Positions 2,706 to 62,213 of a stretch of 64,000 nt of DNA are shown here, piece after piece (positions within the stretch are counted from its first letter, which is position 1; each line of letters begins with the position of its first letter). A model generated the notes under the pieces. The model was given only the letters and a program-made list of their open reading frames with translations. It was not told where the DNA came from and did not search any database. A program made the position numbers and the translations under genes. Source of the stretch: an uncultured Paracoccaceae bacterium (GTDB taxonomy: Bacteria; Pseudomonadota; Alphaproteobacteria; Rhodobacterales; Rhodobacteraceae); contig CANLEQ010000006.1 of the NCBI GenBank assembly GCA_947489705.1, positions 1 through 64,000 on the forward strand, in the 5' to 3' direction.

Positions 2706-3752
2706 CTACCTTATCGCCAGACCGTCCGCGTCGAAAAGATGGACGTCGCCGGTCGATGCGACGCCGATCCGGTCCCCCGGTCGTGCCGTCGCGGCGCCTT
2801 GCGTCCGCACCGTGATCCGGCCGGCCTCTTCCGTCTCGACCAGCATGAAACTGTCAGAGCCGAGATACTCGACCACATCCACCGTTCCGTCGAGAATGCC
2901 CTCCCCCACCGCGACCTGCGCGAGATGTTCCGGCCGGAGCCCGAGCTTCACCGCCGGCCGGGCGCAGGCGTGCCGCATCTCGCGCCCGCCCGCGGGCAGA
3001 ACCCGGTTGCCCTCGCCACGGCAGTCGAGGATGTTCATCGCGGGCGAGCCGATGAATTCCGCCACGAAGAGATTGGCGGGCTCCTCGTAGAGCTCGCGGG
3101 GGGTGCCCACCTGGGCGATCGTCCCGAATTCCAGCACCACGATCCGGTCGGCCAGCGTCATCGCCTCGACCTGGTCGTGAGTGACGTAGATCATCGTCCG
3201 GCCGAGCGTGCGGTGCAGCCGCGCGATCTCGTAGCGCATCTCGACCCTGAGCGCGGCATCGAGGTTCGACAGCGGCTCGTCGAACAGGAACGCGGTCGGG
3301 TCGCGCACGATCGACCGGCCGATGGCCACGCGCTGGCGCTGCCCGCCCGACAGGTCCTTCGGCCGCCGCTCCAGATAGTCGCCGAGCTTGAGGATTCGCG
3401 CCGCCTCGTCGACCTTGGCGTCGATCTCGGCCTTGGGCGCGCCCGCGGTCTTGAGCGAAAAGCCCATATTGTCGCGCACCGACATGTGCGGATAGAGCGC
3501 GTAGCTCTGGAACACCATCGACAGGCCCCGCTTGGCGGGCGGATCGCTGGTCACGTCGCGCCCGTCGATGGCGAGCGCGCCGCGGCTGATCTCCTCCAGC
3601 CCGCCGATCATCCGCAGCAGCGTTGACTTCCCGCATCCCGACGGCCCGACGAAGACCACGAATTCGCCGTCGCGGATCGCGAGGTCCAGGCCCTTGATGA
3701 CCTGAACGTCGCCGAACCATTTCTCTATCTCCCGAAGCTCGATCGCTCCCAT
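2706..3752 (-). CDS. Sugar ABC transporter ATP-binding protein (MalK/UgpC type)
   Basis: This 348-residue ATPase is complete: Walker [11 protein letters not shown]-loop [12 protein letters not shown], signature [14 protein letters not shown], Walker [12 protein letters not shown] and switch His in [10 protein letters not shown]. It is followed by a C-terminal TOBE/regulatory domain (LGLRPEHL). It energises the permease pair encoded just upstream. The ORF track extends to 4193, but the extra N-terminal sequence is antisense to the glycosidase. The ATG at 3752 overlaps the glycosidase stop (TGATG), so it is the last gene of the lacI-led operon, and coupling should keep its translation in step with the operon. 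It converges with the LysR gene. Confidence 0.93.
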
Positions 3753-47720: not shown

Positions 47721-49061
47721 ATGACCGAGACCCACACCAGCCCCGACGAGATCCGGACCCTCTTCTCCCGTGCCATGTCGGCGATGTACCGCGACGAGGT
47801 TCCCGCCTACGGCACGCTTCTGGAACTCGTGCGGCATGTGAACGACGGCTATCTCGACACGCGGCCGGACGAACGCGCTCGCCTGGAGCGGCTGGGGGAG
47901 CTCGACCGCATCGGCGAGGAGCGTCACGGCGCCATCCGCCTCGGCACCGCGGCGGAGCTTGCGACGATCCGGCGGCTCTTTGCGGTGATGGGCATGTATC
48001 CGGTCGGCTATTACGACCTTTCGGTGGCCGGCGTGCCGGTACATTCCACCGCGTTCCGCCCCGTGGACGAGGCGGCGTTGCGCGCGAACCCGTTCCGCGT
48101 CTTCACCTCGCTGCTGCGGCTCGAGCTGATCGACGATGCCGATCTGCGGGCCGAGGCCGAGGGTATCCTCGCCGCGCGCGAGATCTTCACGCCCGGGTGC
48201 CGCCGTCTGATCGACCGCGCCGAGGCGCAGGGCGGGCTTGCCGCGCAGGACGCGGAGGCGTTCGTCACGGAGGCGCTCGAGACGTTCCGGTGGCATTCGG
48301 ATGCCCTCGTCACCGCCGATATGTACCGCCGCCTCCATGCCGCGCACAGGCTGGTCGCCGACGTGGTCAGCTTTCGCGGCCCGCATATCAACCACCTGAC
48401 GCCGCGCACGCTCGATATCGACCGCGCGCAAGCCGAGATGCCCGCGCGCGGCATCGCGCCCAAGGCCGTGGTCGAGGGGCCGCCGCCGCGCAACGTGCCG
48501 ATCCTGTTGCGACAGACGTCGTTCAAGGCGCTCGAGGAGAGTGTCTCCTTTCGAGACGACAATGCGGCGGGTCGCGGTCGCCACACCGCCCGTTTCGGCG
48601 AGATCGAGCAACGCGGGCTTGCCCTGACGCCCAAGGGTCAGGCCCTCTACGACCGGCTGCTGGCCGAGGCCCGCGCCAAGGTGACGCCGGCCGCCGACGG
48701 CTCGAACGCGGCGGATTATGTCGCGACGCTGCAAGAGGTCTTCGCGGAGTTTCCCGACGATCTGGAGACGTTGCGCCGCGAGGCCTTGGGCTATTTCCGT
48801 TACCGCGCCGATCCGACCGCCGCGGGCGGGATGCGCGCGGATCCCATCGTCTACGAGGATTTCCTGCCGGTGAGTGCCGCGGGCATCTTTCAGTCCAATC
48901 TGGGCGATGTGGCCGCGACGGCCTTGGCCGCCACGCCCGGCCAGGACCGGTTCGAGGCCGCGCTCGGCGCGCCGGTCCAAGATCTTCACGCGCTCTATGC
49001 CGGGATCGAGGCCGCGTCGCGCGACCGGGCCCGTGCCGACATCGACGCGACAATCGCCTGA
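47721..49061 (+). CDS. hglS: 2-oxoadipate dioxygenase/decarboxylase (DUF1338, HglS family)
   Basis: The 446-residue DUF1338 protein has a VOC-like metalloenzyme fold. Recognisable segments include YGTLLELVRHVNDGYL, VGYYDLSVAGVPVHSTAFRPV, FTSLLRLELI, SFRGPHINHLTPRTLDID with likely Fe-binding His, FRYRADP and YEDFLPVSAAGIFQSNLG. HglS converts 2-oxoadipate to D-2-hydroxyglutarate using O2, a step in D-lysine catabolism. It lies 12 bp before the amaB-like gene, which produces 2-aminoadipate, and this supports the assignment. The aminotransferase and earlier steps are not in the window. Confidence 0.87.
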   Translation: MTETHTSPDEIRTLFSRAMSAMYRDEVPAYGTLLELVRHVNDGYLDTRPDERARLERLGELDRIGEERHGAIRLGTAAELATIRRLFAVMGMYPVGYYDLSVAGVPVHSTAFRPVDEAALRANPFRVFTSLLRLELIDDADLRAEAEGILAAREIFTPGCRRLIDRAEAQGGLAAQDAEAFVTEALETFRWHSDALVTADMYRRLHAAHRLVADVVSFRGPHINHLTPRTLDIDRAQAEMPARGIAPKAVVEGPPPRNVPILLRQTSFKALEESVSFRDDNAAGRGRHTARFGEIEQRGLALTPKGQALYDRLLAEARAKVTPAADGSNAADYVATLQEVFAEFPDDLETLRREALGYFRYRADPTAAGGMRADPIVYEDFLPVSAAGIFQSNLGDVAATALAATPGQDRFEAALGAPVQDLHALYAGIEAASRDRARADIDATIA

Positions 49062-49073
49062 AAGGACCGACAT

Positions 49074-50597
49074 ATGCCGACCAGACCCCTCGCAACCGTC
49101 ACGCGCGACACCATGACGGCCTGCGGCGTCACAGCCACGCTCGATCATCGAGGGGGTATGGAGGTGCGATCCCCCCTGACCGGCGAGACCGTCGCGACCC
49201 TCGCGCATCATCGGGCCGAGGAGACCGCGACGGCCATCGCGAAGGCCGTCGAAGCGTTCCGGACCTGGCGCATGGTTCCCGCACCGCGGCGGGGCGAGCT
49301 CGTGCGGCTCTTCGGGGAGGAGCTGCGCAAGTCCAAGGAGGATCTCGGTCGCATGGTGTCGATCGAGGCGGGCAAGTCGCCCTCCGAAGGGCAGGGCGAG
49401 GTGCAGGAGATGATCGACATCTGCGACTTCGCCGTGGGCCTCTCGCGGCAGCTCTACGGCCTGACCATCGCCACCGAGCGGCCGGGCCACAGGATGATGG
49501 AGACCTGGCATCCGCTGGGCGTCGTCGGCATCATCACCGCGTTCAACTTTCCCTGCGCGCCCTGGGCCTGGAACGCGGCCCTGGCGCTCGTCTGCGGCGA
49601 TCCGGTCGTGTGGAAGCCGTCGGAGAAGACGCCGATGACCGCGCTCGCATGTCAGGCGGTGCTCGACCGGGCGATCGCGCGGTTCGGTCCCGACGCGCCC
49701 GACGGATTGAGCCAGGTGCTGGTCGGCGGGCCTGATGTCGGCGAGGCGCTGGTCGAAAGCGAAAGCGTCGCGCTGATCTCGGCCACCGGCTCCACCCGGA
49801 TGGGGCGAATCGTCGGGCCGAAGGTTGCGGCGCGGTTCGGGCGATGCGTGCTCGAGCTCGGCGGCAACAATGCCGGGATCGTGTGCCCCTCGGCCGATCT
49901 CGACATGGCCTTGCGCGCCATCGCCTTCGGCGCGATGGGCACGGCGGGGCAACGCTGCACCACGACGCGCAGGCTCTTCGTGCACGCCGACGTCTATGAC
50001 CGGTTGGTCCCCGCGCTGAAGAAGGCCTGCGCGTCGGTCACGGTCGGCAACCCGCTCCAAACCGATGCGCTCGTGGGTCCGCTGATCGACCGTGCGGCCT
50101 TCGATGGCATGCGGGCCGCGCTCCTTGAGGCGCGCGAGGCCGGCGGCCGCGTCGAAGGCGGCACGCGCGAGGCGTTGGGGCCCGACACCGCCTATTACGT
50201 CCGGCCCGCGATCGTCGAGATGCCCGATCAGGGCGGTCCCGTCACGCGCGAGACATTCGCGCCGATCCTCTACGTGATGCGGTATTCCGATTTCGACGCG
50301 GCACTCGACATGCACAATGCCGTGGGCGGCGGGTTGTCGTCGTCGATCTTCACGACGGACCTGCGCGAGATGGAGACGTTTCTGTCGGCGCGCGGATCGG
50401 ATTGCGGCATCGCCAACGTCAACATCGGTACGTCCGGTGCCGAGATCGGCGGCGCCTTCGGAGGAGAGAAGGAAACCGGCGGCGGGCGCGAGAGCGGTTC
50501 GGACGCCTGGCGCAACTACATGCGGCGGGCCACGAACACGATCAACTATTCCCGCGAATTGCCGCTGGCGCAGGGGGTGAGCTTCGACATCGGCTGA
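49074..50597 (+). CDS. amaB: L-aminoadipate-semialdehyde (piperideine-6-carboxylate) dehydrogenase
   Basis: This 507-residue ALDH7-family enzyme has IITAFNFPCAPWAWNAALALVCGD, SATGSTRMGR, catalytic Glu in LELGGNNAGIV, catalytic Cys in GTAGQRCTTTRRLFVH, and the ALDH7-specific NIGTSGAEIGGAFGGEKETGGGRESGSDAWRNYMRR. It oxidises aminoadipate semialdehyde to 2-aminoadipate in lysine degradation. It overlaps nothing but follows hglS by 12 bp with AAAGGAC at the start. It converges with a glycosyltransferase gene 12 bp away. Confidence 0.88.
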   Translation: MPTRPLATVTRDTMTACGVTATLDHRGGMEVRSPLTGETVATLAHHRAEETATAIAKAVEAFRTWRMVPAPRRGELVRLFGEELRKSKEDLGRMVSIEAGKSPSEGQGEVQEMIDICDFAVGLSRQLYGLTIATERPGHRMMETWHPLGVVGIITAFNFPCAPWAWNAALALVCGDPVVWKPSEKTPMTALACQAVLDRAIARFGPDAPDGLSQVLVGGPDVGEALVESESVALISATGSTRMGRIVGPKVAARFGRCVLELGGNNAGIVCPSADLDMALRAIAFGAMGTAGQRCTTTRRLFVHADVYDRLVPALKKACASVTVGNPLQTDALVGPLIDRAAFDGMRAALLEAREAGGRVEGGTREALGPDTAYYVRPAIVEMPDQGGPVTRETFAPILYVMRYSDFDAALDMHNAVGGGLSSSIFTTDLREMETFLSARGSDCGIANVNIGTSGAEIGGAFGGEKETGGGRESGSDAWRNYMRRATNTINYSRELPLAQGVSFDIG

Positions 50598-50609: not shown

Positions 50610-51743
50610 TCAGCGAAGGCTGCCCTGCCGCGCCGGAAGCTTGACCTGCTCGAACGCCACCGGCGGCGCCGACGCGGTCATGCCGTCGCGCGCGGCGTCG
50701 TAGGTCCGCTCGAGACTGTCGAGCATGATCTTCAGCGAATAATGCCGCTCGACGCGGTCTCGCGGGATCTCGCGGGGGATCTCCAGGGCTTCCTTCGCCG
50801 CGCGGGCGAGTGCGGCCGGATCGCCGGGCGCGGCAAAGCGGCCCGCCGGGCCGATGACCTCGCGCACGGCGCCCATATCGGTCGCAGCGACGGCAAGACC
50901 GCAGGCCATCGCCTCGATCGCCACGAGACCGAACGGCTCGTCCCAGAGCGGCGTGAAGAAGAGGATCGAGGCGCGGGCGATCGCGGCGGCGAGGTCCGCA
51001 TTCGACAGATGACCGCCATAGCGGATGGACGGACCCAGAAGCGGCCTCAACTCGGCGTCGAAATAGCCTTGATGCTCGATCGGACCGAAGAGGGTCAGCG
51101 GCAGTCCCGCGATCCGCGCCGCCTGGGCCGCGAGATGCGGTCCCTTGGTGGCGGTGATGCGGCCCGCCCAGACGGCGCTGCCGTCGCCGCGCGCGGAAAA
51201 CGGCCATTCGCCGAGGTCGATGCCGTTCGGCACGACATGGGTCTCGTTCGGGGCGCCGTCGGGCCACCATGCGTGGCGCTGGCGTTCGGAGCAGATCGTG
51301 AAATGCGACCACGGCGCCGCGCTGTCGTGGACCGCGCGTTGCAGCACCGGAAAGGGCGGCACGTGCAGCGACGTGACCATCGGCACGCGGTCGCGACGGG
51401 CCATGCGGGGCGGAAAGCGGTGCAGGCAATTGTTGTGGATTACGTCGTAGCCGCCCTCGCGCAGGGCGGTGACGGCCTGTTCGAAGGCCAGATCGAGATA
51501 TTGCGTCAATTCCGGCGTGCCGTTGAAGCGATGCCAGGGATAGGCGCGGTCGTAATGTTCCTCGAGGATCGGCCAGAGTGGCACCTCGCCGTCGCTGTCG
51601 CCGGTGGCGAAGAGGGTGACGTCGTGTCCGCGCGCGCGAAGACCCCGCACGAGGTGCCACGAATGGGCCTCCATCCCGCCCATGAAGGGCCGCGCGATCG
51701 GATAGCGGACATGGGACAGGACGGCGATGCGCAGCGGGTTCAC
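50610..51743 (-). CDS. Glycosyltransferase family 4 protein
   Basis: The 377-residue GT4 enzyme of GT-B fold has the N-terminal RIAVLSHVRYPIARPFMGGMEAHSWHLVRGLRARGHDVTLFATG. The donor-binding C-terminal half has VPNGIDLGEWPF, VWAGRITATKGPHLAAQAA and the EPFGLVAIEAMACGLAVAATDMG motif with the nucleotide-sugar-contacting Glu. It is a retaining transferase with unknown donor and acceptor. It overlaps the GT2 gene by 4 bp and is the last of four co-oriented carbohydrate genes. Confidence 0.9.
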   Translation of the reverse strand: MNPLRIAVLSHVRYPIARPFMGGMEAHSWHLVRGLRARGHDVTLFATGDSDGEVPLWPILEEHYDRAYPWHRFNGTPELTQYLDLAFEQAVTALREGGYDVIHNNCLHRFPPRMARRDRVPMVTSLHVPPFPVLQRAVHDSAAPWSHFTICSERQRHAWWPDGAPNETHVVPNGIDLGEWPFSARGDGSAVWAGRITATKGPHLAAQAARIAGLPLTLFGPIEHQGYFDAELRPLLGPSIRYGGHLSNADLAAAIARASILFFTPLWDEPFGLVAIEAMACGLAVAATDMGAVREVIGPAGRFAAPGDPAALARAAKEALEIPREIPRDRVERHYSLKIMLDSLERTYDAARDGMTASAPPVAFEQVKLPARQGSLR

Positions 51744-52723
51744 TCCGCCACGACCGTGGAGAAGGACGCCTCCGCCGCCGCGACCTCGGCCCGGCGCGCG
51801 GCTTCGTCCCTGTCGCCCGGTGCGATCCCCTCCAAGAGATCCAGAACCCGCCGGGTATTGGCATAGGGCATGTCGTCCGCCTGACGGCAGAGGGCGAAAT
51901 CCTGCGCATCGGGTTCGCGCAGGATGCGCAATGCGCTGCCGTCCTTCTCAATCAGGCCCATCATCTCGAACGCCCAGAGCCAGTGCCCCATCGTGCGGTA
52001 CCCCCACCGGCTCGCGAAGATATCCGCGTTGCGCAGGACCGAGGCGAGATGGTGGATCGGCGGCATGCAATGGTCGTGATGCTGGTGAAACACCTTCGCG
52101 CCGCGCATCCACCAGATCGGTATGCCGCGATGGTCGAGTCCGCGGGCGAAGTCGGTATCCTCGCCGCCATAGCCGTAATAACCTTCGTGGAACTTGTCGG
52201 ACCGCGACCAGACGGCGCGGTGCATGGCGAAGTTCAGCGACCAGAAACAGCGGTAATCGTTGCAGGCGCGCAAGGGACGTTCGGGGGGCGCCTGACGATC
52301 GGAATGCCGCATCCCGACCCGCTCGAAATACTCGAAATCGAGCCCCGCCTTCGCGGCGGAGGCGGGCAGGTACGCCACCTCGCCCATCACCACGCCGCGA
52401 TCGGGGCTGCAAACCTGGGCCACATCGCTCACCAGGTCGGGATGCGGGATGCAGTCCACATCCACGAAGACCAGCACGTCGCCGATCGCCTCGTTCGCCA
52501 CCCGGTTGCGCGCAGCGGCGAGTGGCAGGGCGCCATCGGGACGCGTCACGCGGATCTGGCGAACCGGGAAAGAGGTCGCCGGAAGATCTTCGTAGGGCTT
52601 GTCCTGCATCACGCCGATCAGCAGCTCGAGAGGCTTGACGCGCTGCGCCTCGAAACCGCGGATGACGTTGGCCAGATGCGCGTCGCGCCCCCTGGCGATG
52701 GTGAGTGCGGAGACGTCAGGCAT
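51740..52723 (-). CDS. Glycosyltransferase family 2-like protein
   Basis: The 327-residue GT-A-type transferase has AAARNRVANEAIGDVLVFVDVDCIPHPDL, with a DxD-like motif for metal/nucleotide binding, and CNDYRCFWSLNFAMHRAVWSRSDKFHEGYYGYGGEDTDFARGLDHRGI, the galactosyltransferase C-terminal-like (Glyco_transf_7C) signature. It overlaps both neighbours (4 and 8 bp). The ATG at 52723 is used; the 571-aa ORF in the track contains antisense sequence. The acceptor is unknown. Confidence 0.88.
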   Translation of the reverse strand: MPDVSALTIARGRDAHLANVIRGFEAQRVKPLELLIGVMQDKPYEDLPATSFPVRQIRVTRPDGALPLAAARNRVANEAIGDVLVFVDVDCIPHPDLVSDVAQVCSPDRGVVMGEVAYLPASAAKAGLDFEYFERVGMRHSDRQAPPERPLRACNDYRCFWSLNFAMHRAVWSRSDKFHEGYYGYGGEDTDFARGLDHRGIPIWWMRGAKVFHQHHDHCMPPIHHLASVLRNADIFASRWGYRTMGHWLWAFEMMGLIEKDGSALRILREPDAQDFALCRQADDMPYANTRRVLDLLEGIAPGDRDEAARRAEVAAAEASFSTVVAE

Positions 52724-53873
52724 GGACAGGGTTCCTTTCGGGATGGGCAGGGTCGTGCCAGATCCGATCCGCCAGATCGTCGAGCCAGCGTGCCGCGACC
52801 CGGGCGCCGTCGCGTCCGGCCAACGCGCGTTGCCGCAGCGGATCGTGTCGGGACCGGGCCTGCTCCACCGCTTCGATCCAGCGATGGGCCGAGGCGGGCA
52901 GGCTTTGCAGATGCAGGGCCGCGTCCGCACGGCCGAGGGCGTGGGCTTTTGCGACCTGTTCGTCGAAATAGCGCCATTCGGGCACCACGATCCACGGGCG
53001 CTCCGCGGCGAGCACCATGGCGCAGGTCGTGTTGCCTGCGGACGAGACAACCAGATCGGCGGCCGCGATATGCTCCGCCGCGGTGTCGACCCAGCCGAGA
53101 TGCGTAAGGTTCGGGGGTAGCGTGGCGTGCCAGTCGCGCTGCACCGCGCCGATCGTGCGCCAGTGCCAGTCGGGGAAACTGCGCGCCGCGACCCCGAGAG
53201 GCGCTTCGCTGACGCCGCTGCCGCCGCCGCCGGACATGACGAGGGCGATGCGGGCGTCGTCCGGTATGCCGAGCTGCCGGCGCGCCGCCGCTCGCGCTGG
53301 CATGGATCCGGCGGTGCCGAGGCCCGGGGCGAAGCAGGTCTTGGCCCGCATCGAAGCGTCCCAATCGGGCTGTGCGAGATCGGAATGGAACGGCGCCAGA
53401 AGCCCCGCGGCACCCTCGTATGCCGCGAGATGCCCGGGATCGGTCCGGTCGCCATGCTGGAGAACCTTCACATGAGGCACCGAGCAGATGCGGGCGAATT
53501 GCGCGATCTCGGCGCTGACGTCGCAGATCATCAGGGCCGGATTCTCGGCGTGGAAGAAGGCGGCAAGCCGCGCGGTCGCCTCGCGGATGCCGGGCCAACC
53601 CAGGGGCGCGCAATGCAGCGTCCGGGGGGTCGAGATCGCACCCAGCCCGGCAGGCGTCTCGCCCACGGGCTCGAAGAGCGAGGGGATGCGGGTGATGGTG
53701 ACGCCCTCGCGCAGGGGCGGAAAGATGTCGTCGCGGGCGCAGAATATGCGAACGGGGCGCGATGACGGCAGCGCGTTCGCGATCGCCGCACAGCGTTCGG
53801 CATGGCCGCGCCCTTGATGGTGCACGAAATACCCGAACGGTCGGGGCGATTGTGCGTCGATCAGATCGCGCAT
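52716..53873 (-). CDS. GT28/MurG-like glycosyltransferase
   Basis: The 385-residue GT-B protein has an N-terminal FGYFVHHQGRGHAERCAAIANAL motif of the MGT/YjiC-like group and a MurG-like C-terminal donor domain: ALVMSGGGGSGVSEAPLGVAA, LGWVDTAAEHIAAADLVVSSAGNTTCAMVLAAERPWIVVPE, RYFDEQVAKAHAL. It is probably cytoplasmic or membrane-peripheral. It lies 1 bp after the SPS-like gene. Donor sugar and acceptor are unknown. Confidence 0.82.
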   Translation of the reverse strand: MRDLIDAQSPRPFGYFVHHQGRGHAERCAAIANALPSSRPVRIFCARDDIFPPLREGVTITRIPSLFEPVGETPAGLGAISTPRTLHCAPLGWPGIREATARLAAFFHAENPALMICDVSAEIAQFARICSVPHVKVLQHGDRTDPGHLAAYEGAAGLLAPFHSDLAQPDWDASMRAKTCFAPGLGTAGSMPARAAARRQLGIPDDARIALVMSGGGGSGVSEAPLGVAARSFPDWHWRTIGAVQRDWHATLPPNLTHLGWVDTAAEHIAAADLVVSSAGNTTCAMVLAAERPWIVVPEWRYFDEQVAKAHALGRADAALHLQSLPASAHRWIEAVEQARSRHDPLRQRALAGRDGARVAARWLDDLADRIWHDPAHPERNPVHA

Positions 53874-53874
53874 G

Positions 53875-55908
53875 TCATTCTGCCGCGATCGTTTCGGCTG
53901 CGAGGATGCCGTAATGGCGCAGCCCGTCGAGCACGCCCGCGGCGCAGGGAAGGGGCGAGCGGTAGCCTCCCGGCACCGCGTCGAGTTCGGAGAGAGCGTT
54001 GACGGGCCTGATCGCGCGCGGAAAGGCCCCGAGCATGTCCGCGTCGTTGCCGCTATCCCCGGCGACGACGCAATCGGTGGGGTTCAGGCCGAGCCGCGCC
54101 GCCTCGAAGGCGATGGCGGCTGCCTTGCCGGCGCGGGCTGGCATCACGTCGATGAACCGGCCGTGCGAGGCGATCACCTGCGCCGCGAGATCACGCGAGG
54201 CGATCATGTCGCGCATCGCGATCGCGTCGTCCTCGGTTCCGAAGAAGCTCAACTTCCACGCGCGCTGTTCATGCGAAGGCTGAGGCGCGAAGGGCGCGAG
54301 CGCGAGGCTCACCGCCTTCGGGTCCCATCCATCGGCAATGCTGGCGGCGTAGGCGTTGCAAAGCCGGTAGGTATCCCCCCGGGTGCGGCGCCATATCTCG
54401 GATCCTACGGACGTAATCAGCGTATCGGGCGCGTCCAACCCCCAATCCGCCAAGGTGAAGCGCGCGTCGCTGATCGACCGGCCGGTGGCCACGGCGAAGA
54501 TCTGACCCGTGGGGCGCCGTTCGAGCCACCGCGAGAAGTCGCGCGCCCCGGCTGCATCGCCGGTGAGCGTTCCGTCGATATCGCACGCGACGAGATCGGT
54601 CGGTCGTGTGATCTGGCGGGCCGGCGTCGCGGAGCGCAGTCCGGCATAGACTTCAAGCAGACGCCCGGCATAGCGGTCCCAGTCGAAGATCCGCAGGGCC
54701 CGACCGCGGGCCTCGTTGCTCCTGGCGGTGCGTTGCGTATCCGACAGCACACGGCGCAGACCCTCGGCGATCCTGTCGGGGCGGGAGGGATCGACCAGCG
54801 CGCCGTAACCGATGAGCTCGACGATGTCGCGCGGGCCGCCGTTGCGGGTCGCCACGATCGGCACGCCGCTTCGCGCGGCCTCGACCAGGGTCAGTCCGAA
54901 CGGCTCGTGATGGGCGGGGTTGCAAAAGACGCCGCCGTTGGCCGCCAGAGCATACAGCGCCGGCACGTCCTCGGGCACGTGCCGGCGGGGAAGGGCGACC
55001 TTGCCCCAGAGATCGTTACGGTCAACCGCGTCGAAGAGCGCGCGCATCACCTGCGCCTGTTCGTCCGTCCCGTCGGCAAGCCCGTCGCGCAAACCCGCGA
55101 CGATGACCAGGTTTGCGGCCTCCTGAAGATCGGGCGCGGCGGCATAGGCCTCGACCAGCGCCACCAGGTTCTTCTTCCGGATCGGACGGGAAATCGTGAG
55201 GATCACCGGCTTTTCGGGATTGCGCAGGAACGGCGCGATCAGTACGCGCCCACGATCCGGCGACGAAGCGGCTGTAAGGGCGACGCCGGGATAGATACGG
55301 TGGACCTTGCCCTCCGCCGCCTCGGCGCAGGCCGGGATCTGGCGTTCCGCCTCGTCGCGCGAGGAGGCGACGATCGCATCGGCATCGATCATGGCCCGAT
55401 GCTCGAGATCGATGCGTCGCAACAAGGCCGGGTCTGCGGCGACCTTCTGAAAGGCCAACTTTTCCGTCGCCAGAGAATGGGCGGAATAGAGCCAGGGCGT
55501 TCCGAACCGCATCGCGGCTGCCTGGGCAAGCTGTGCCGCATCGGCGAAATGCGCATGGATCACGTCAGGGCGCCCGCAGGTCTCGAGCATATCGAGAAAG
55601 GCTGCGCGCAGCGCCGGAAGCTCGGCTTCAAGGGCCTCCTTGCAGACATATCCCGCCTGCGGAGATCGCAAGCGCCTTATCTGGCATTTTTCGGAAACCC
55701 GCTCGTGCAGGCGCGCATATCGTCCGCCGGAATTCGGCATCTCGAAGGCGCGGGTGACGATCGTGACCTCGGTGACACCCCTTAACCGGGCCTGCGCCGT
55801 AGCGGCACCGAGGACGTAGGCGATATGCCCGCCGGTATCTTCCGTCAGACCATAGCTGATCGGGGGTGCCGACAGGCACCCGCCCAAGGCAATATGCATT
55901 ACGTGCAT
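53875..55908 (-). CDS. Fused sucrose-phosphate synthase/phosphatase-like protein (GT4 plus HAD)
   Basis: The 677-residue protein begins with a GT4 domain of sucrose-phosphate-synthase type: HIALGGCLSAPPISYGLTEDTGGHIAYVLGAA, DVIHAHFADA, YSAHSL, ISRPIRKKNLVALVEAY, HHEPFGLTLVEAARSGVPIVATRNGGP. From about residue 435 follows a HAD phosphatase of sucrose-6-phosphatase type (DLVACDIDGTLTG, VATGRSISDA, VVAGDSGNDADMLG) with the catalytic Asp pair intact. Products could be sucrose or mannosylfructose; the two are hard to tell apart by motif. The start at 55908 aligns with the family. It is first in a four-gene operon. Confidence 0.87.
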   Translation of the reverse strand: MHVMHIALGGCLSAPPISYGLTEDTGGHIAYVLGAATAQARLRGVTEVTIVTRAFEMPNSGGRYARLHERVSEKCQIRRLRSPQAGYVCKEALEAELPALRAAFLDMLETCGRPDVIHAHFADAAQLAQAAAMRFGTPWLYSAHSLATEKLAFQKVAADPALLRRIDLEHRAMIDADAIVASSRDEAERQIPACAEAAEGKVHRIYPGVALTAASSPDRGRVLIAPFLRNPEKPVILTISRPIRKKNLVALVEAYAAAPDLQEAANLVIVAGLRDGLADGTDEQAQVMRALFDAVDRNDLWGKVALPRRHVPEDVPALYALAANGGVFCNPAHHEPFGLTLVEAARSGVPIVATRNGGPRDIVELIGYGALVDPSRPDRIAEGLRRVLSDTQRTARSNEARGRALRIFDWDRYAGRLLEVYAGLRSATPARQITRPTDLVACDIDGTLTGDAAGARDFSRWLERRPTGQIFAVATGRSISDARFTLADWGLDAPDTLITSVGSEIWRRTRGDTYRLCNAYAASIADGWDPKAVSLALAPFAPQPSHEQRAWKLSFFGTEDDAIAMRDMIASRDLAAQVIASHGRFIDVMPARAGKAAAIAFEAARLGLNPTDCVVAGDSGNDADMLGAFPRAIRPVNALSELDAVPGGYRSPLPCAAGVLDGLRHYGILAAETIAAE

Positions 55909-56011
55909 GCGATCGTTCCGAACCTTGTGAAGTCGTATCCGAAACCCGCGATGGCCCCGGACACGCGGTATCAAGCTTTTCGGGCTTGCAGCGTTCCCGT
56001 CCGGAGGCGAC

Positions 56012-56842
56012 ATGTCGCATGTCGGCGGTATTCCGCACGCATCATCAGTCGTGAGGATCGCCTTGCTGCCATATCGCTATGTCTTCGTGGGCGGTCTGCA
56101 CCGTTCGGGAACATCCCTCGTCGCGCGTCTCCTGGGAGGTCTGCCCGGCGTCGCGGCCATAACGAACGCGCCCGTTCCCGAGAACGAGGGCGTCTATCTG
56201 CAAGGGGCGATCCCGCACACCGCGCGGCACGGGCGGCCGATGCATTTCGCCACCGACCCTGCCCAGCATCACATCGAGGGATCGGGCTTCGACCGGCTGG
56301 AGATACGCGAGCGGATCGAGGCCGACTGGGCTCCGTTCTTCGGCGCAGGCGCCTGGCGGGTGGAGAAATCGCCGGTGAACCTGACGCGAATGCGGCTCTA
56401 TCAACAACTTTTTCCGCTCTCGCAATGCGTCGTGGTCCTGCGCCATCCCGAAGCGGTGGCCGCCGCCGTCGCCAAGTGGGTCGACGCGCCGAGCGACGCG
56501 CTGATCGATCACTGGATTGCCGCCCACGCGATCGTCGCGCGCGACCTCGCCCATCTTCAGGCCGTCCTGGTCCTGCGGTACGAGGATCTGGTCGCGGATC
56601 CCGCGGCGTGGCTCGGGGCGCTCGCGGCCTATCTCGATCTGCCGGGGAGCGCGACGCTGCCGGAACCGGTGGTGGACGGAAACGCACGGTACACCGATGC
56701 CGCGACCATGTCGGAATCGCAGGCGCGGGCGGCCTCCCTCTGGGGCTATGGCAGGGGGCTGTCGGTGATGCCGTACGAGCCGGTCCTGCACCACCCGCTC
56801 AACGAGATCCGCGGCGCGGTCCTGCGGTCTCTCCCGAACTAG
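56012..56842 (+). CDS. Sulfotransferase family protein
   Basis: The 276-residue cytoplasmic protein has the PAPS 5'-phosphosulfate loop near the N-terminus (YVFVGGLHRSGTSLVARLLGG), the 3'-phosphate-binding segment QCVVVLRHPEAVAAAVAKW and a later LRYEDLVADP typical of the family. It would transfer sulfate from PAPS to an alcohol or sugar. GGAGG five bases before ATG 56012 defines the start. It is divergent from the SPS/glycosyltransferase operon over 103 bp, so a sulfated glycan or glycolipid is a possible joint product. It ends 6 bp from the ABC ATPase stop. Confidence 0.85.
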   Translation: MSHVGGIPHASSVVRIALLPYRYVFVGGLHRSGTSLVARLLGGLPGVAAITNAPVPENEGVYLQGAIPHTARHGRPMHFATDPAQHHIEGSGFDRLEIRERIEADWAPFFGAGAWRVEKSPVNLTRMRLYQQLFPLSQCVVVLRHPEAVAAAVAKWVDAPSDALIDHWIAAHAIVARDLAHLQAVLVLRYEDLVADPAAWLGALAAYLDLPGSATLPEPVVDGNARYTDAATMSESQARAASLWGYGRGLSVMPYEPVLHHPLNEIRGAVLRSLPN

Positions 56843-56848
56843 CGGGGA

Positions 56849-57973
56849 TCATTGCGTCGGCATTCGGCGCGTTCCACACAGGCGCCGCCCGCTCTCGGGA
56901 TCGAAGAGGTTCAGCTCTCCCAGATCCACGACGAACGGCACGTCTTTCTCGGGGCTCAGGCGAGTGTTCGGGCGGAAGACGCGTGCGGTCACCTCGGTGC
57001 CCCCTATCTCGAGAAAGATCAGTGCCTCGCCGCCCAAGGGCTCGACCAGCGTGATGTCGGCGGTGAAGGAGAAAGGGCGCCGCATCTCGCTCGCAATCCG
57101 TTCGGGCGCGATCGCCTCGGGACGGAGCCCGAGCCGGACGTCGCGGCCGGGTTCGATCCCGCGGCAGGCCTCGGGGTCGAGCGGCAGGCGCGGCCCGCCG
57201 GGGATCTCGACGGCCAGCCCGTCTCCGTCGCGAACGGTTCGCGCATCGAGCAGGTTCATGGGCGGGCTGCCGATGAACCCGGCGACGAAATCCGAAGCCG
57301 GCAGGTGATAGACCTCGTCGGGCGTGCCGACCTGCTCGATCCGTCCGTCGCGCATGACCACGATCCGGTCGGCGAGCGTCATCGCCTCGACCTGGTCGTG
57401 GGTGACGTAGATCACCGTGGTGCGGACCTTCTCGTGGAGCTTGCGGATCTCGGTCCGCATCTGGCCGCGCAGCTTGGCGTCGAGATTCGACAGCGGCTCG
57501 TCGAAGAGGAACACGGCCGGGTCGCGCACGATCGCACGCCCCATCGCCACGCGCTGCCGCTGTCCACCCGAAAGCGCGGCGGGCTTGCGGGTCAGAAAGC
57601 TCTCGATCCCCAGTAGCTTTGCGGCGCGGCCGACCTTTTCGGCGATTTCGGATTTGGGGCTCCCGGCGATCTTCAGCCCGAAGCCCTGGTTGTCGCGCAC
57701 CGTCATGTGCGGATAGAGGGCGTAGTTCTGGAACACCATCGAGATGTCGCGCGCCCGCGGCGGCAGGTCGTTGACCACCCGGTCGCCGATCCGGATCTCG
57801 CCGCCCGAGATGTCCTCGAGCCCCGCGATCATCCTCAGCGTGGTGGACTTGCCACAGCCCGACGGGCCCACGAAGACCACGAATTCCTCGTGGGCGATGT
57901 CGAGGGTGAAGTCGTGCACCGCCTGGACGGGTCCGAACCGTTTCACGACACCCTTCAGGGAAACCTCGGCCAT
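56849..57973 (-). CDS. Sugar ABC transporter ATP-binding protein (MalK/UgpC type)
   Basis: The 374-residue ATPase has Walker [22 protein letters not shown], signature [14 protein letters not shown], Walker [12 protein letters not shown] and TOBE-domain elements (LGLRPEAI). It is the last gene of the GntR-led operon, 10 bp downstream of the MalG-like permease. It is similar in design to the ATPase at 2706 but clearly a different gene. It converges with the sulfotransferase gene. Confidence 0.93.
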
Positions 57974-57983
57974 AATCGTCTCC

Positions 57984-58808
57984 TCAGCCCTTGATCGCGC
58001 CGGCCGTGAGCCCGCCTACGAGGTATTTCTGGATCGCGGTGAAAAAGATCGCCGGCGGGATCAGCGCGAGCGTCGCGGCGGCCATCATCTGCCCCCAATC
58101 GACGCCCGAACGTCCGACGAAGCTCAGCAATCCGACGGCGAATGTCTTCTTGGCCTCGGAGCTGATCAGCATGAGCGAGAACAGCAGTTCCGACCATGCG
58201 GCGGTGAACACGAAGCCCAGCGTCGCGCCCACACCCGGCAGCATCAGCGGCAGGATGATCCTGATCAGCGCCTGGAACCGCGTGCAGCCATCGATCATCG
58301 CCGCCTGCTCTAGCTCGCGCGGAATGCCTTCGAAGAAGGAATGCATGAGGAAAGCGGCGAAGGGCAGGTTGAACGCGGTAAAGACGACGACGAGCCCGAT
58401 CCGCGTGTCGACGAGACCCACCGGTGCCAGGATCTGGTAGAGCGGCGTGATCAACATGACGATCGGAAAGAGCTGGGTGATCACGAGGAACACCATCAGC
58501 GCGGTCTTGCCGCGGAACCTGAAGCGCGAGAACGCGTAGCCGATCCCCGTGGAAAGCACCGTGACGATCGCCGCTGTCCCGAGCGAGACGATCACCGTGT
58601 TGAGGAAATAGGTCGGAAACGGACTCTCCTCGATCACGTAGCGGAAATTTTCGAAGGTGATGACCGAGGGCCAGAGCGTCGTCCCCTCTGTATAGAGAAG
58701 CTGGTCGGGCGTGAGCGCGATCCGCAGCAGCCACAGCAGCGGAAAGAGCGCGAAGGCGAGATAGGCGAACCTGATCAGCCAGATCCCCGCGGTGGTGACG
58801 ATCCTCAT
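57984..58808 (-). CDS. Sugar ABC transporter permease (MalG type)
   Basis: The 274-residue permease is of normal length with six predicted helices, EAA loop [23 protein letters not shown] and the family tail [15 protein letters not shown]. The ATG at 58808 is chosen over the extended 492-aa ORF, whose first part is antisense. It overlaps the MalF-like gene as ATGA. Unlike the MalG-like protein at 4996, it has no N-terminal membrane extension. Confidence 0.91.
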
Positions 58809-59734
58809 TGGCCGAGCCTCCCGCGGATCCAGAGCAGGAAGATCGAGTAGAAGACGAGAAGCACCATCAGGACCGACGCCAGTGCCGAGGCATAGCCAAA
58901 ATTCATCGAGCTGTAGGCAGAGGTGAAGACGTAGTTCGGCAGGGTCTGCGAGGTGTTCGCGGGTCCGCCGCCGGTCATCACGAAGATGAGTTCCGGCGAG
59001 TTCGCGACCCACACGGTACGCAGCAGGATGGTGATCGTCATCATCGGCAGCAGGAACGGCACGGTAATGTGGCGGAACGCCTCCCACCCGGTCGCGCCGT
59101 CGATCGCGGCGGCCTCGTAGAGATCCGACGGCACCGAGCGCAGCGCGGCGAGCAGGGTGATCGCGAAGAACGGCACGCCCCACCAGATCATCGCCGTGAT
59201 CGGCCCGTAGAGCGCCAGATCGGGGTCCGACAGGATGTTTCGCGGCTCGTCGAGCATGCCGATCGCGCTCAGCATGCCGGGCAGCGGGCTCACGATCGGA
59301 TTGAAGAGCCATTGCCAGTTCAGCCCCGACAGGAAGGTCGGGACGGCCCAGGGCAGGAAGACCAGCGACTGGAAGATCGCGCGCCCGGGGAACGGCTTTT
59401 CGAGGATCAGCGCGAGGCCCAGCCCCAGCGAGATCTGGAAGAGTACCGACCAGAAGGTCCACTTGGCCGTGTTTGCCAGCGCCAGCCAGAAGGTGCGGTC
59501 GGACCAGAGTTCGGCATAGTTCTCGAGCCCGCTCCAGCCGCGCGCGGCGGGCCGGAAGATCACGTAGTTCTGGAAGCTGAACGAGACGCCCACGACCAGC
59601 GGCACGAGCATCACCAGCGCGACGATGGCGATGCCCGGCGCCAGATAGAGATAGGGCTCGGCAGCGGTCAACCGCTGCCGAGACGTGCGCGGCGACGCCC
59701 CGGTACGACCGGGATCGTTCACCGTCGTGCTCAC
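58805..59734 (-). CDS. Sugar ABC transporter permease (MalF type)
   Basis: The 309-residue permease has EPYLYLAPGIAIVALVMLVPLVVGVSFSFQNYVIF, the LGLGLALILEKPFPGRAIFQSLVFLPWAVP segment and the EAA loop LYEAAAIDGATGWEAFRHITVPFLLP. The GTG at 59734 forms a GTGA overlap with the binding-protein stop and is preferred to the track start at 59893. It lacks any large periplasmic insert. It would pair with the next-encoded MalG-like subunit. Confidence 0.9.
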   Translation of the reverse strand: MSTTVNDPGRTGASPRTSRQRLTAAEPYLYLAPGIAIVALVMLVPLVVGVSFSFQNYVIFRPAARGWSGLENYAELWSDRTFWLALANTAKWTFWSVLFQISLGLGLALILEKPFPGRAIFQSLVFLPWAVPTFLSGLNWQWLFNPIVSPLPGMLSAIGMLDEPRNILSDPDLALYGPITAMIWWGVPFFAITLLAALRSVPSDLYEAAAIDGATGWEAFRHITVPFLLPMMTITILLRTVWVANSPELIFVMTGGGPANTSQTLPNYVFTSAYSSMNFGYASALASVLMVLLVFYSIFLLWIRGRLGQ

Positions 59735-61005
59735 TGGTTCTCTTCCATCCAGCGCTGCTCCGCTTCGGTCAGGAACGCGTCCCATTCGGTGCCGAGCTCT
59801 TCGGCGGACATTTGTCCCAGAAGGGCTGCCTGGCTCGTCTCGACCGCGATCACGTCGAAGAATTCGCCGAGTTCGGGCAGGTAGGCAGGCCACGGCACGA
59901 GATTGTACTGGTCGCTCTCGAGTTCCTCGAAGAAGCCCGCATAGACGGGATCGTTGAAGTATTCGTCATCCTCGGGAATCTCGACGGCGGGGACGATGCC
60001 GATGAACTTGGCCCATTCGAGATTGGTCTCCGGCTCCATCAGGCGGCCGATGAACTCCTTGGCGAGGTCGGGGTTCTCGGAACTCGTGGGGACCGACCAG
60101 CCGAACATGCCGATGGGCGGAGAGATCTCGCCCGGAGGGCCGAGCGGGACCGGTGCGGTGGCGAAATCGTCGTCGCCCATGCGCTCGCGCACCTGAATGA
60201 GCGCGTCGGGATCCTGGTCCATGAACGCGCAGGTGCCCGAGTAGAAGCCCGAGACCTGCTCGTTGAAGCTCCAGTTGACGGAATCGGGCGGTGCAGCGCC
60301 ATCGTTGTAGAGGTCGAGCATCATTTGGATGCCCTCGATCGCCTCGGGAGAGGCGAAGACCGAGGTGCCATCCTCGTTGAACCAGCCGTCGGCGCCGGTC
60401 ATGCCCGACACGGCAAGCCACCAGCCGACGAAGCCGCCCGTCGCCCCCCGCAGGCAATAGCCGTACTTGCCCTCGAGCTCGGAGACGGCGCGGGCCATCT
60501 CGTTGAACTCCTGCCAGGTCTCGGGCGGCGCGTCAAAGCCCGCTTCGGCCAGGAGCGGCTTGTTGTAGTACATCGCCCGCACGAAATAGCCGTAGGGCAG
60601 GAAATAGGCGGTGTCGTCGTAGATCCGCGCGAAGTCGAGCGTCGCCTGCGTGAGGTCGCCCGCCCCTTCCCATTCGTCCATCCAGGGGCCGAGATCGGTC
60701 AGCAGGTCGTTGACCGCAAGTGTCGAGATCCAGCGCTCGGGCATCTCCAGCACGTCGATCTGCTGGCCCGACATCGTCATCGTGAGGATCTGCTCGAACG
60801 CGGAATCCCACGGGACCGAGACCAGCTCGACATCGACGCCGTCATGCGCCGCTTCGAAATCGGACGCGATCTCTTCCATGAGGCCGGTGCGTTCGTTGGT
60901 CGTGAGCACTTCGACGACGCGCAATGTCTGCGCGCCCGCTACACCGCCCCATGCGGCGATCGCGGCGGCGGCCGCGACCATGCTCAGGGTTCCCCTCGTC
61001 TTCAT
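59731..61005 (-). CDS. Extracellular solute-binding protein, family 1 (MalE type)
   Basis: The 424-residue protein has a Sec signal (KTRGTLSMVAAAAAIAAWGGVAGAQ) and type-1 features: LRVVEVLTTNERTGLMEEIASDFEAAHDGVDVELVSVPWDSAFEQILT, FLPYGYFVRAMYYNKPLLAEAGFDAPPETWQEF, GWSVPTSSENPDLAKEFI. The ATG at 61005 overlaps the PLP-enzyme stop as ATGA. The ligand class is usually an oligosaccharide or glycerol-phosphate compound, but co-transcription with a PLP enzyme leaves it open. Confidence 0.91.
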   Translation of the reverse strand: MKTRGTLSMVAAAAAIAAWGGVAGAQTLRVVEVLTTNERTGLMEEIASDFEAAHDGVDVELVSVPWDSAFEQILTMTMSGQQIDVLEMPERWISTLAVNDLLTDLGPWMDEWEGAGDLTQATLDFARIYDDTAYFLPYGYFVRAMYYNKPLLAEAGFDAPPETWQEFNEMARAVSELEGKYGYCLRGATGGFVGWWLAVSGMTGADGWFNEDGTSVFASPEAIEGIQMMLDLYNDGAAPPDSVNWSFNEQVSGFYSGTCAFMDQDPDALIQVRERMGDDDFATAPVPLGPPGEISPPIGMFGWSVPTSSENPDLAKEFIGRLMEPETNLEWAKFIGIVPAVEIPEDDEYFNDPVYAGFFEELESDQYNLVPWPAYLPELGEFFDVIAVETSQAALLGQMSAEELGTEWDAFLTEAEQRWMEENQ

Positions 61006-62213
61006 GTCGTAACTCCCATGTTGGTGTCTTCTTGTTCTTCTTGCGGGTCGCACCGCGCGAGCGCGGCGTCGATATCGCGCCAGAGATCCTCGACATCCTC
61101 GAGGCCGATATGCAGCCGGACGAGGTCGTCGGGCACGCCGAACGCCTCGAACGGGTTGGTCATGCCGGGCTGGATCAGCCCAAGCTGCGCGGGGAAGGCG
61201 AGGCTCTCGTGGCCGCCCCAGCTGACGCCGAGGCGAACGACCTTGAGCGCGTCGCAGAATCGCCGCGCGGCGGGGGCGCCGCCCCGCATCCTGATCGCGA
61301 AAAGCCCCGAATGCCCCGACAGCGTTGTGTCGCCCGTTCCGGTTTCCAGGCCGGGATGCCGTACGTCGCTCACCGCCGGATGATCGGCGAGCCGCGCGGC
61401 GATGGTGAGCCCCGAGCGGTGATGCTGTCGCATCCGCATCGGCAGCGTCCGCATCCCCCGTACCAGCAGCCAGGCGTCGAACGGCGACAGCTTGGCACCG
61501 AGGCTGCCATAGGCGACGCGGTTGATCTCGGCGATCAGGTCGGCGCGGCCGCAGACGATGCCGGCGACGGTGTCGGAATGGCCCGAAAGGTATTTCGATG
61601 CCGAATGGATTACCAGATCCACGCCGTGCTCGATCGGGCGCTGGAAGGCGGGGCTTGCCCAGGAATTATCGATGACGCTGATCGCGCCGGCCTCGCGCGC
61701 GATCGCGGAGAGCGCGGGCAGGTCGAGCACGTCGAACGTGATGCTGGTCGGGCTTTCGAGATAGAGGATCTTCGCGCCGGCCGCAGCCACGCGCACGGCG
61801 TCGAGATCCGTTCCCTCGACGAACACCGCCTCGATCCCCATCCGGCTCATCAGGCCCGTCATCAGGCGATAGGTGTCGGGATAGACGTTGCGCACGCAGA
61901 CCACCTTGTCGCCCGTCTCGAGCAAGCCCAGTAGCGTGGCCGAGATCGCGCCCATGCCGCTCGCAAAGCTGCGCGCGTCGTCGGCCCGTTCGAGCCGGGC
62001 GAGCTTGGTCTCGAAATTGCGCACCGTCGGGTTCAGGCCACGGGTGTAGATCGGATTGCGTTCCGGCGCGCGAAAGGCGGCCTCGAACGCATCCACGCTG
62101 TCGAAGGTGAAGAGGCTCGTCTGCACGATCGGGGGCACCGCGGGCCCGCTCATGCCGGTATCGTCGACGACGATGGTGGCGAAATCGTCGGGGATGACGG
62201 GGTCAGGTATCAT
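61002..62213 (-). CDS. Cys/Met-metabolism PLP-dependent enzyme (cystathionine gamma-synthase/lyase type)
   Basis: The 403-residue fold-type I PLP enzyme has VPPIVQTSLFTFDSVDAFEAAF, YTRGLNPTVRNFETKLARLE, FASGMGAISATLLGLL, YPDTYRLMTGLMSRMGIEAVFVE, YLESPTSITFDVLDL and the PLP Lys in DLVIHSASKYLSGHSDTVAGIV. It performs gamma- or beta-elimination/replacement on a sulfur or other amino acid. Its place between a FadR-type regulator and a MalE-type binding protein, with overlaps on both sides, is unusual. The ATG at 62213 overlaps the regulator stop by 11 bp. Confidence 0.88.
   Translation of the reverse strand: MIPDPVIPDDFATIVVDDTGMSGPAVPPIVQTSLFTFDSVDAFEAAFRAPERNPIYTRGLNPTVRNFETKLARLERADDARSFASGMGAISATLLGLLETGDKVVCVRNVYPDTYRLMTGLMSRMGIEAVFVEGTDLDAVRVAAAGAKILYLESPTSITFDVLDLPALSAIAREAGAISVIDNSWASPAFQRPIEHGVDLVIHSASKYLSGHSDTVAGIVCGRADLIAEINRVAYGSLGAKLSPFDAWLLVRGMRTLPMRMRQHHRSGLTIAARLADHPAVSDVRHPGLETGTGDTTLSGHSGLFAIRMRGGAPAARRFCDALKVVRLGVSWGGHESLAFPAQLGLIQPGMTNPFEAFGVPDDLVRLHIGLEDVEDLWRDIDAALARCDPQEEQEDTNMGVTT

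Follow-up and report, generated by a model that had tools for sequence, protein, structure and literature searches.

A mobile gene cassette of alphaproteobacteria as a candidate pathway for anionic, sucrose-based oligosaccharides

Introduction

The occurrence of a gene resembling bifunctional sucrose-phosphate synthase/phosphatase (SPS/SPP) beside three further glycosyltransferase genes and a divergently oriented sulfotransferase gene raises the question of which product such a gene set provides. The genes are located at positions 50610-56842 of the window, i.e., the stretch of 64,000 nucleotides from an uncultured Paracoccaceae bacterium that was analyzed here. An initial annotation had assumed that sucrose synthesis alone would not require this equipment and had named a glycosylated or sulfated solute or glycolipid with a sucrose- or mannosylfructose-type core. 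A literature search on SPS-sulfotransferase clusters, sulfated sucrose, and EcfG in combination with sucrose-phosphate returned nothing relevant, and no description of such a product was found. The gene families, the operon layout, the catalytic residues of the fusion, the integrity of the cassette, the exchange of the sulfotransferase for a pyruvyl transferase and the promoter motif of the orthologues were read from sequences.

Organization and Distribution of the Cassette

All five predicted genes of the region were confirmed at the positions first assigned to them. Four are located on the minus strand, at most 1 bp apart or with overlaps of 4-8 bp, in agreement with the single overlapping operon proposed for them. 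It comprises the SPS/SPP-like fusion (53875-55908, 677 aa) with a GT4-type synthase domain and a C-terminal HAD-IIB phosphatase, a GT1/GT28-like glycosyltransferase with the MurG fold (GT-B; 52716-53873, 385 aa), a GT2-like glycosyltransferase (GT-A; 51740-52723, 327 aa) with DVDC and GGEDTD motifs, and a GT4 glycosyltransferase (50610-51743, 377 aa). The divergent sulfotransferase gene (Sulfotransfer_3, plus strand, 263-276 aa) starts at 56012 or at the GTG at 56051 and ends at 56842; alignments with homologues set in close to the GTG, which makes it the likelier start. That it shares the promoter region with the fusion held true, but the fusion start had to be corrected. The listed open reading frame of 712 aa, reaching 56013, is too long, since homologues match it only from about residue 36 onward, which places the true start at ~55908; fusion and sulfotransferase genes thus do not overlap and have an intergenic region of ~105-140 bp in common. 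Among the neighbors, an HglS-type 2-oxoadipate dioxygenase/decarboxylase gene followed by an L-piperidine-6-carboxylate dehydrogenase gene (47721-50597) forms a lysine catabolism pair that is convergent with the cassette, and a maltose/UgpC-type ABC importer (ATPase, permeases and binding protein; 56849-61053) adjoins the sulfotransferase gene. The importer was rejected as a cassette member because neither its permease genes nor its binding-protein gene occur at the other compared loci.

A protein search detected the fusion in 11 of 121 related genomes, which belong to four genera and two families. With the GT2-like protein as query, an independent search led to these 11 genomes and no others; the sulfotransferase gave 12 hits, namely the 11 and a weaker one (hypergeometric P for co-occurrence 9e-15, a value inflated by relatedness). 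Among 385 genomes spread over the class, only two possess the sulfotransferase and both carry the core. Twelve loci, i.e., 10 of the 11 fusion loci as well as those of Rhodobacterales HKCCE2091 and Tropicimonas, were compared by tblastn, whereby the GT28-like and GT2-like genes were found at 12/12, the sulfotransferase at 11/12 and the GT4 gene at 10/12 loci. No other gene was common to most of them, and neither a transporter nor an acyltransferase, flippase or lipid enzyme was conserved. The five proteins correlate with one another in their pairwise distances (0.65-0.89). Relatives of the fusion are encoded on 30 plasmids of Paracoccus, Sulfitobacter, Sphingomonas, Croceicoccus, Methylobacterium, Roseomonas, Jiella and others, and all plasmids with the sulfotransferase (11/11) also have the fusion. 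Overall, fusion and sulfotransferase stand alongside transferases at 19 loci on chromosomes and plasmids with unrelated flanks; proteins of the cassette loci are ~45-74% identical to those of the window. The conservation of the set at many loci with unrelated flanks shows that the grouping goes beyond chance: the five genes travel together as a discrete cassette moving between soil and marine bacteria, often via plasmids.

Individual copies show further features. The cassette of P. aestuarii adjoins the trehalose genes treZ/treY, and a Sulfitobacter pontiacus plasmid (L049, 7243-8818) carries HipA-domain and helix-turn-helix genes between sulfotransferase and fusion, which are absent in another strain (L071). 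In some plasmid copies, the GT28-like and GT4 genes are broken or shortened (L072, 8695-11086; L066, 12218-13171), suggesting decay of the cassette.

This distribution bears on the simplest explanation, according to which the fusion provides plain sucrose for osmoprotection and the adjoining transferases and sulfotransferase serve unrelated ends. Sucrose is a common osmolyte and the fusion looks catalytically complete from its residues; nevertheless, fusion and companion genes have been passed on together in different genera and orders, with all other neighbors changing. A plain sucrose operon was rejected on account of this co-inheritance and is regarded as highly improbable. The initial assumption that more than sucrose is made, and that the extra transferases and the sulfotransferase belong to the set, is instead supported, as these genes strictly co-occur and keep the same arrangement in different genera and orders.

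The SPS/SPP-Like Fusion

The fusion matches the Pfam families S6PP (E 2e-44) and Glycos_transf_1 (E 4e-22). With the catalytic and substrate residues of the SPS of T. elongatus as reference (PMC7264703), His158, Glu331, Arg249 and Glu339 correspond to H144, E335, R241 and E343 of the fusion, which are conserved in all members. The basic residues for the phosphate of fructose-6-phosphate (F6P; Arg105 and Arg178 in T. elongatus) are represented by K90, a Lys replacing Arg105, and R165, and both are kept in the window and in all examined cassette fusions except that of P. yeei. Moreover, the HAD phosphatase active-site residues D443, D445, K595, D618 and D622 are conserved in the fused forms. The GGQ acceptor-site motif of classical SPS, which the Acidithiobacillus fusion possesses, was not found in the cassette family, where it reads GGH throughout and GGA in P. 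yeei. The fusion also stays under the NCBIfam equivalog cut-offs for the SPS domain (TIGR02472, 295.4 vs. 576 bits) and for the phosphatase domain (TIGR02471, 118.5 vs. 209.75 bits). Owing to these scores and to GGH in place of GGQ, the fusion is called SPS-like, and a mannosyl or other analogue is possible as its product. The score below the SPS cut-off and the family-wide replacement of Gln by His would equally suit a different core, in which a mannosylfructose-phosphate synthase/phosphatase-type fusion uses GDP-mannose, or another ketose phosphate serves as acceptor, leading to a glycosylated and sulfated mannosylfructose analogue. Such a core is considered rather unlikely, as the contacts of the T. 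elongatus SPS to glucose, to the UDP phosphates and to the F6P phosphate are conserved and the GT4 enzyme is related to an enzyme that extends sucrose.

Deviating fusions occur on plasmids. A Paracoccus yeei plasmid (L053, 8001-11153) carries a two-gene version consisting of fusion and GT4, with the replacements K90Q, K150A and R165Q in the fusion, i.e., a loss of F6P-phosphate residues, and with GGA in place of GGH; this fusion probably acts on a different acceptor. A Falsirhodobacter plasmid (L056, 2232-3446) encodes a fusion that retains the F6P residues and is devoid of the phosphatase domain.

The Three Further Glycosyltransferases

The GT4 enzyme (Glycos_transf_1, E 1e-18) has its best match among solved structures in 7FG9 (E 5e-46), a glucosylsucrose synthase (TeGSS) which transfers glucose onto sucrose and is encoded next to SPS in T. 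elongatus (PMC9909042). The donor-site residues Arg179, Lys184 and Glu265 of TeGSS align with the invariant R195, K200 and E269 of the GT4 enzyme. The catalytic Tyr18 of TeGSS is not conserved (M, A or R at the aligned position), and there is no Trp at the position of the sucrose-contacting Trp10. A plain glucosylsucrose synthase label was rejected for the missing Tyr18. With the donor site retained and Tyr18 and Trp10 missing, a sugar acceptor of the sucrose type is plausible, the exact reaction possibly being another than that of TeGSS. The enzyme is, in addition, nearly as close to tetrahydrobiopterin glucosyltransferase (145 bits) as to glucosylsucrose synthase (160 bits). Despite the loss of Tyr18, the relation to 7FG9 lends independent support to sucrose as the molecule that would be extended.

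The GT28-like protein (Glyco_tran_28_C, E 2e-8) matches the MurG/GT1 fold, which its structure model confirms while giving no substrate, and the GT2-like protein (Glycos_transf_2, E 3e-6) matches the catalytic domains of chondroitin synthase and GalNAc-transferase. A GT4-GT28-GT2 trio also exists without the fusion in Rhodococcus, Arthrobacter, Psychrobacter, Salinimonas and Novosphingobium (L057, L058, L059, L063, L064). Its acceptor therefore need not be sucrose, which lowers the certainty about the acceptor of the GT4 enzyme. The trio may be of older date, a unit for building sugars that later acquired the sucrose-like primer and the charged end group. These fusion-free trios of Actinobacteria, Gammaproteobacteria and Novosphingobium lie near catalase genes in two cases, and the one of Novosphingobium is accompanied by acyl-CoA dehydrogenase, PIG-L deacetylase and methyltransferase genes.

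Proposed Regulation by the General Stress Response

Promoters of the alphaproteobacterial general stress sigma factor EcfG have been described by the motifs GGAAC-N17-20-GTT (PMC6599016) and GGAAC-N16-CGTT, with the -10 box as the flexible part (PMC7083833). Upstream of the fusion, GGAAC-N16-19-GTT occurs at 12 of 28 orthologous loci, compared to ~0.4 expected from the same loci, with most sites 48-86 bp from the fusion start; permuted motifs never reached more than seven, and RpoH-type promoters, which were also tested, were not enriched. The window itself features a candidate promoter, GGAAC-N17-CTTGAT (55970-55997, minus strand), 89 bp upstream of the fusion, with a good -35 and an imperfect -10 element at a position like that of the clear orthologue sites. 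Its genome also encodes NepR (E 3e-14), and next to this gene both strands carry GGAAC-N-GTT sites. RNA-seq of Sphingomonas melonis Fr1 placed the overlapping genes #3506-3509 within the top 50 in EcfG dependence, and for #3505 a lacZ fusion bore out this dependence (PMC6599016). Order, overlap and annotation of #3505-3509 match the Sphingomonas cassettes (L052, L055, L070), from which we infer that these genes are the Sphingomonas version of the cassette. Taken together, the motif distribution points to a transcription of the cassette under EcfG, at least in many relatives.

The Putative Charged End Group

The sulfotransferase is assigned to Sulfotransfer_3 with E 7e-17 (62.8 bits at a cut-off of 27), and its PAPS-binding motifs GLHRSGT and RHP..A.A..KW are invariant. 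The supply of PAPS is present, as the genome of the window encodes an APS kinase (E 2e-60). The structure model confirms a sulfotransferase fold; its fold matches span tyrosylprotein, heparan and trehalose sulfotransferases with moderate TM-scores and indicate no clear substrate class. The sulfotransferase is found in the Sulfitobacter, Pontibrevibacter, Croceicoccus and two Paracoccus versions, and is missing in those of Roseomonas and P. marcusii. In its stead, all three Sphingomonas plasmids (3/3) have a gene for a polysaccharide pyruvyl transferase along with an additional GT2 gene. No locus features both sulfotransferase and pyruvyl transferase, and ~10 fusion loci have neither within the stretch fetched. 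As the pyruvyl transferase takes the place of the sulfotransferase, an anionic end group appears as the conserved theme, and nothing points more strongly to the purpose of the last step than this exchange of two routes to a negative charge.

A charged, glycosylated product could likewise belong to the cell surface, in which case the transferases would assemble a lipid-linked glycan as the target of sulfation, and a side product or primer would come from the fusion. GT2 and MurG-like GT28 families frequently act on lipid carriers, exopolysaccharides commonly bear sulfate and pyruvate ketals, and one of the EcfG-regulated S. melonis members is annotated as 'Exopolysaccharide biosynthesis protein'. 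Still, the genes conserved with the cassette include no initiating transferase, flippase, polymerase, chain-length regulator or exporter, and the disaccharide made by an SPS/SPP pair is soluble and lacks a free reducing end, a poor start for a lipid-linked chain. We regard a surface glycan or glycolipid as unlikely. The glycolipid of the initial annotation hence loses ground, since the cassette is not accompanied by any conserved lipid enzyme, acyltransferase or flippase; the other part of that annotation, a glycosylated, sulfated sucrose- or mannosylfructose-type solute, stays the best reading in light of the co-inheritance of the genes and of the GT4 enzyme being closest to a sucrose-extending one. 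A secreted small molecule such as a signal, an inhibitor or an opine-like compound, built on a sugar and sulfate scaffold and encoded on plasmids, would fit the patchy distribution, the plasmid carriage and the conserved charged decoration. Given that no exporter, resistance or uptake gene is conserved and that EcfG-type promoters indicate stress physiology, there is little probability for a compound of this kind.

Proposed Pathway and Implications

In the preferred solute pathway, the fusion would couple fructose-6-phosphate with a hexose, UDP-glucose as glucose donor being most likely, and dephosphorylation by the HAD domain of the fusion would yield sucrose or a close analogue. The GT4 enzyme might then attach an alpha-linked hexose to the disaccharide, comparable to glucosylsucrose synthase, and the inverting GT2-like and GT1/28-like enzymes could attach one or more further sugars. 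Finally, the PAPS-using sulfotransferase would add sulfate, a role presumably taken by the pyruvyl transferase in Sphingomonas, with transcription of the genes probably proceeding via EcfG, at least in many relatives. The core sugar, the substrates, the order of steps, the linkages, the solubility and the function of the product were deduced from these assignments. That the cassette yields a soluble, non-reducing and anionic oligosaccharide for stress protection has slightly better than even chances. The wider reading of a mobile pathway for anionic, non-reducing, sucrose-based oligosaccharides, which would be sulfated in Rhodobacterales and pyruvylated in Sphingomonas and constitute an undescribed class of general-stress-response solutes, is put forward tentatively, with its chances somewhat below even. 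If true, a family of charged sugar solutes has been overlooked in alphaproteobacteria, its defined gene set is expressible as one cassette, and a product would be suggested for the strongly EcfG-dependent cluster of S. melonis. Moreover, bacterial genes for a sulfated non-reducing sugar would become available, a class of which a review of 2005 called the biosynthesis of one member, sulfotrehalose, unexplored.

Comparison with Known Systems

One of the closest known systems is the cyanobacterial pair tll1590/tll1591 of T. elongatus, in which SPS adjoins a GT4 enzyme of the same family that extends sucrose and which is used in salt and heat stress (PMC7264703; PMC9909042). Unlike the cassette, it consists of two genes only, without GT2 and GT28 enzymes, sulfate or pyruvate, and the GT4 enzyme of the cassette lacks Tyr18. 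Classical proteobacterial SPS/SPP, as in Acidithiobacillus (L062), features the same domain order and synthase catalytic residues; however, identity amounts to 31-33%, GGQ stands for GGH, and the neighbors are a GH100 glycosidase and sugar kinases with no glycosyltransferases. In Agrobacterium, the mfpsA/mfppA genes encode a synthase and a HAD phosphatase that provide a fructose-based non-reducing disaccharide; this pathway, likened here by its background description, has separate synthase and phosphatase genes and, to our knowledge, no further transferases or sulfotransferase. The mycobacterial Stf0 also sulfates a non-reducing disaccharide and its structure (1tex) is a distant match (Foldseek rank 23), with its product ending up in a lipid. 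Sulfotrehalose of haloalkaliphilic archaea, in turn, is a sulfated non-reducing disaccharide serving as anionic osmolyte, but with a trehalose core and by enzymes called not explored in 2005 (PMC1224877). The S. melonis genes #3505-3509 encode, in this order, a glycosyltransferase, a predicted glycosyl transferase, predicted glycosyltransferases, a glycosyltransferase and an exopolysaccharide protein (PMC6599016). Likened by order and annotation, they would, if homologous, be of the pyruvyl transferase and not of the sulfotransferase type; no study of their product was found in PMC6599016. Seen against these systems, the cassette would be a variant of known compatible-solute pathways, its most likely product being a sulfated oligosaccharide with a sucrose-like core that is made under stress.
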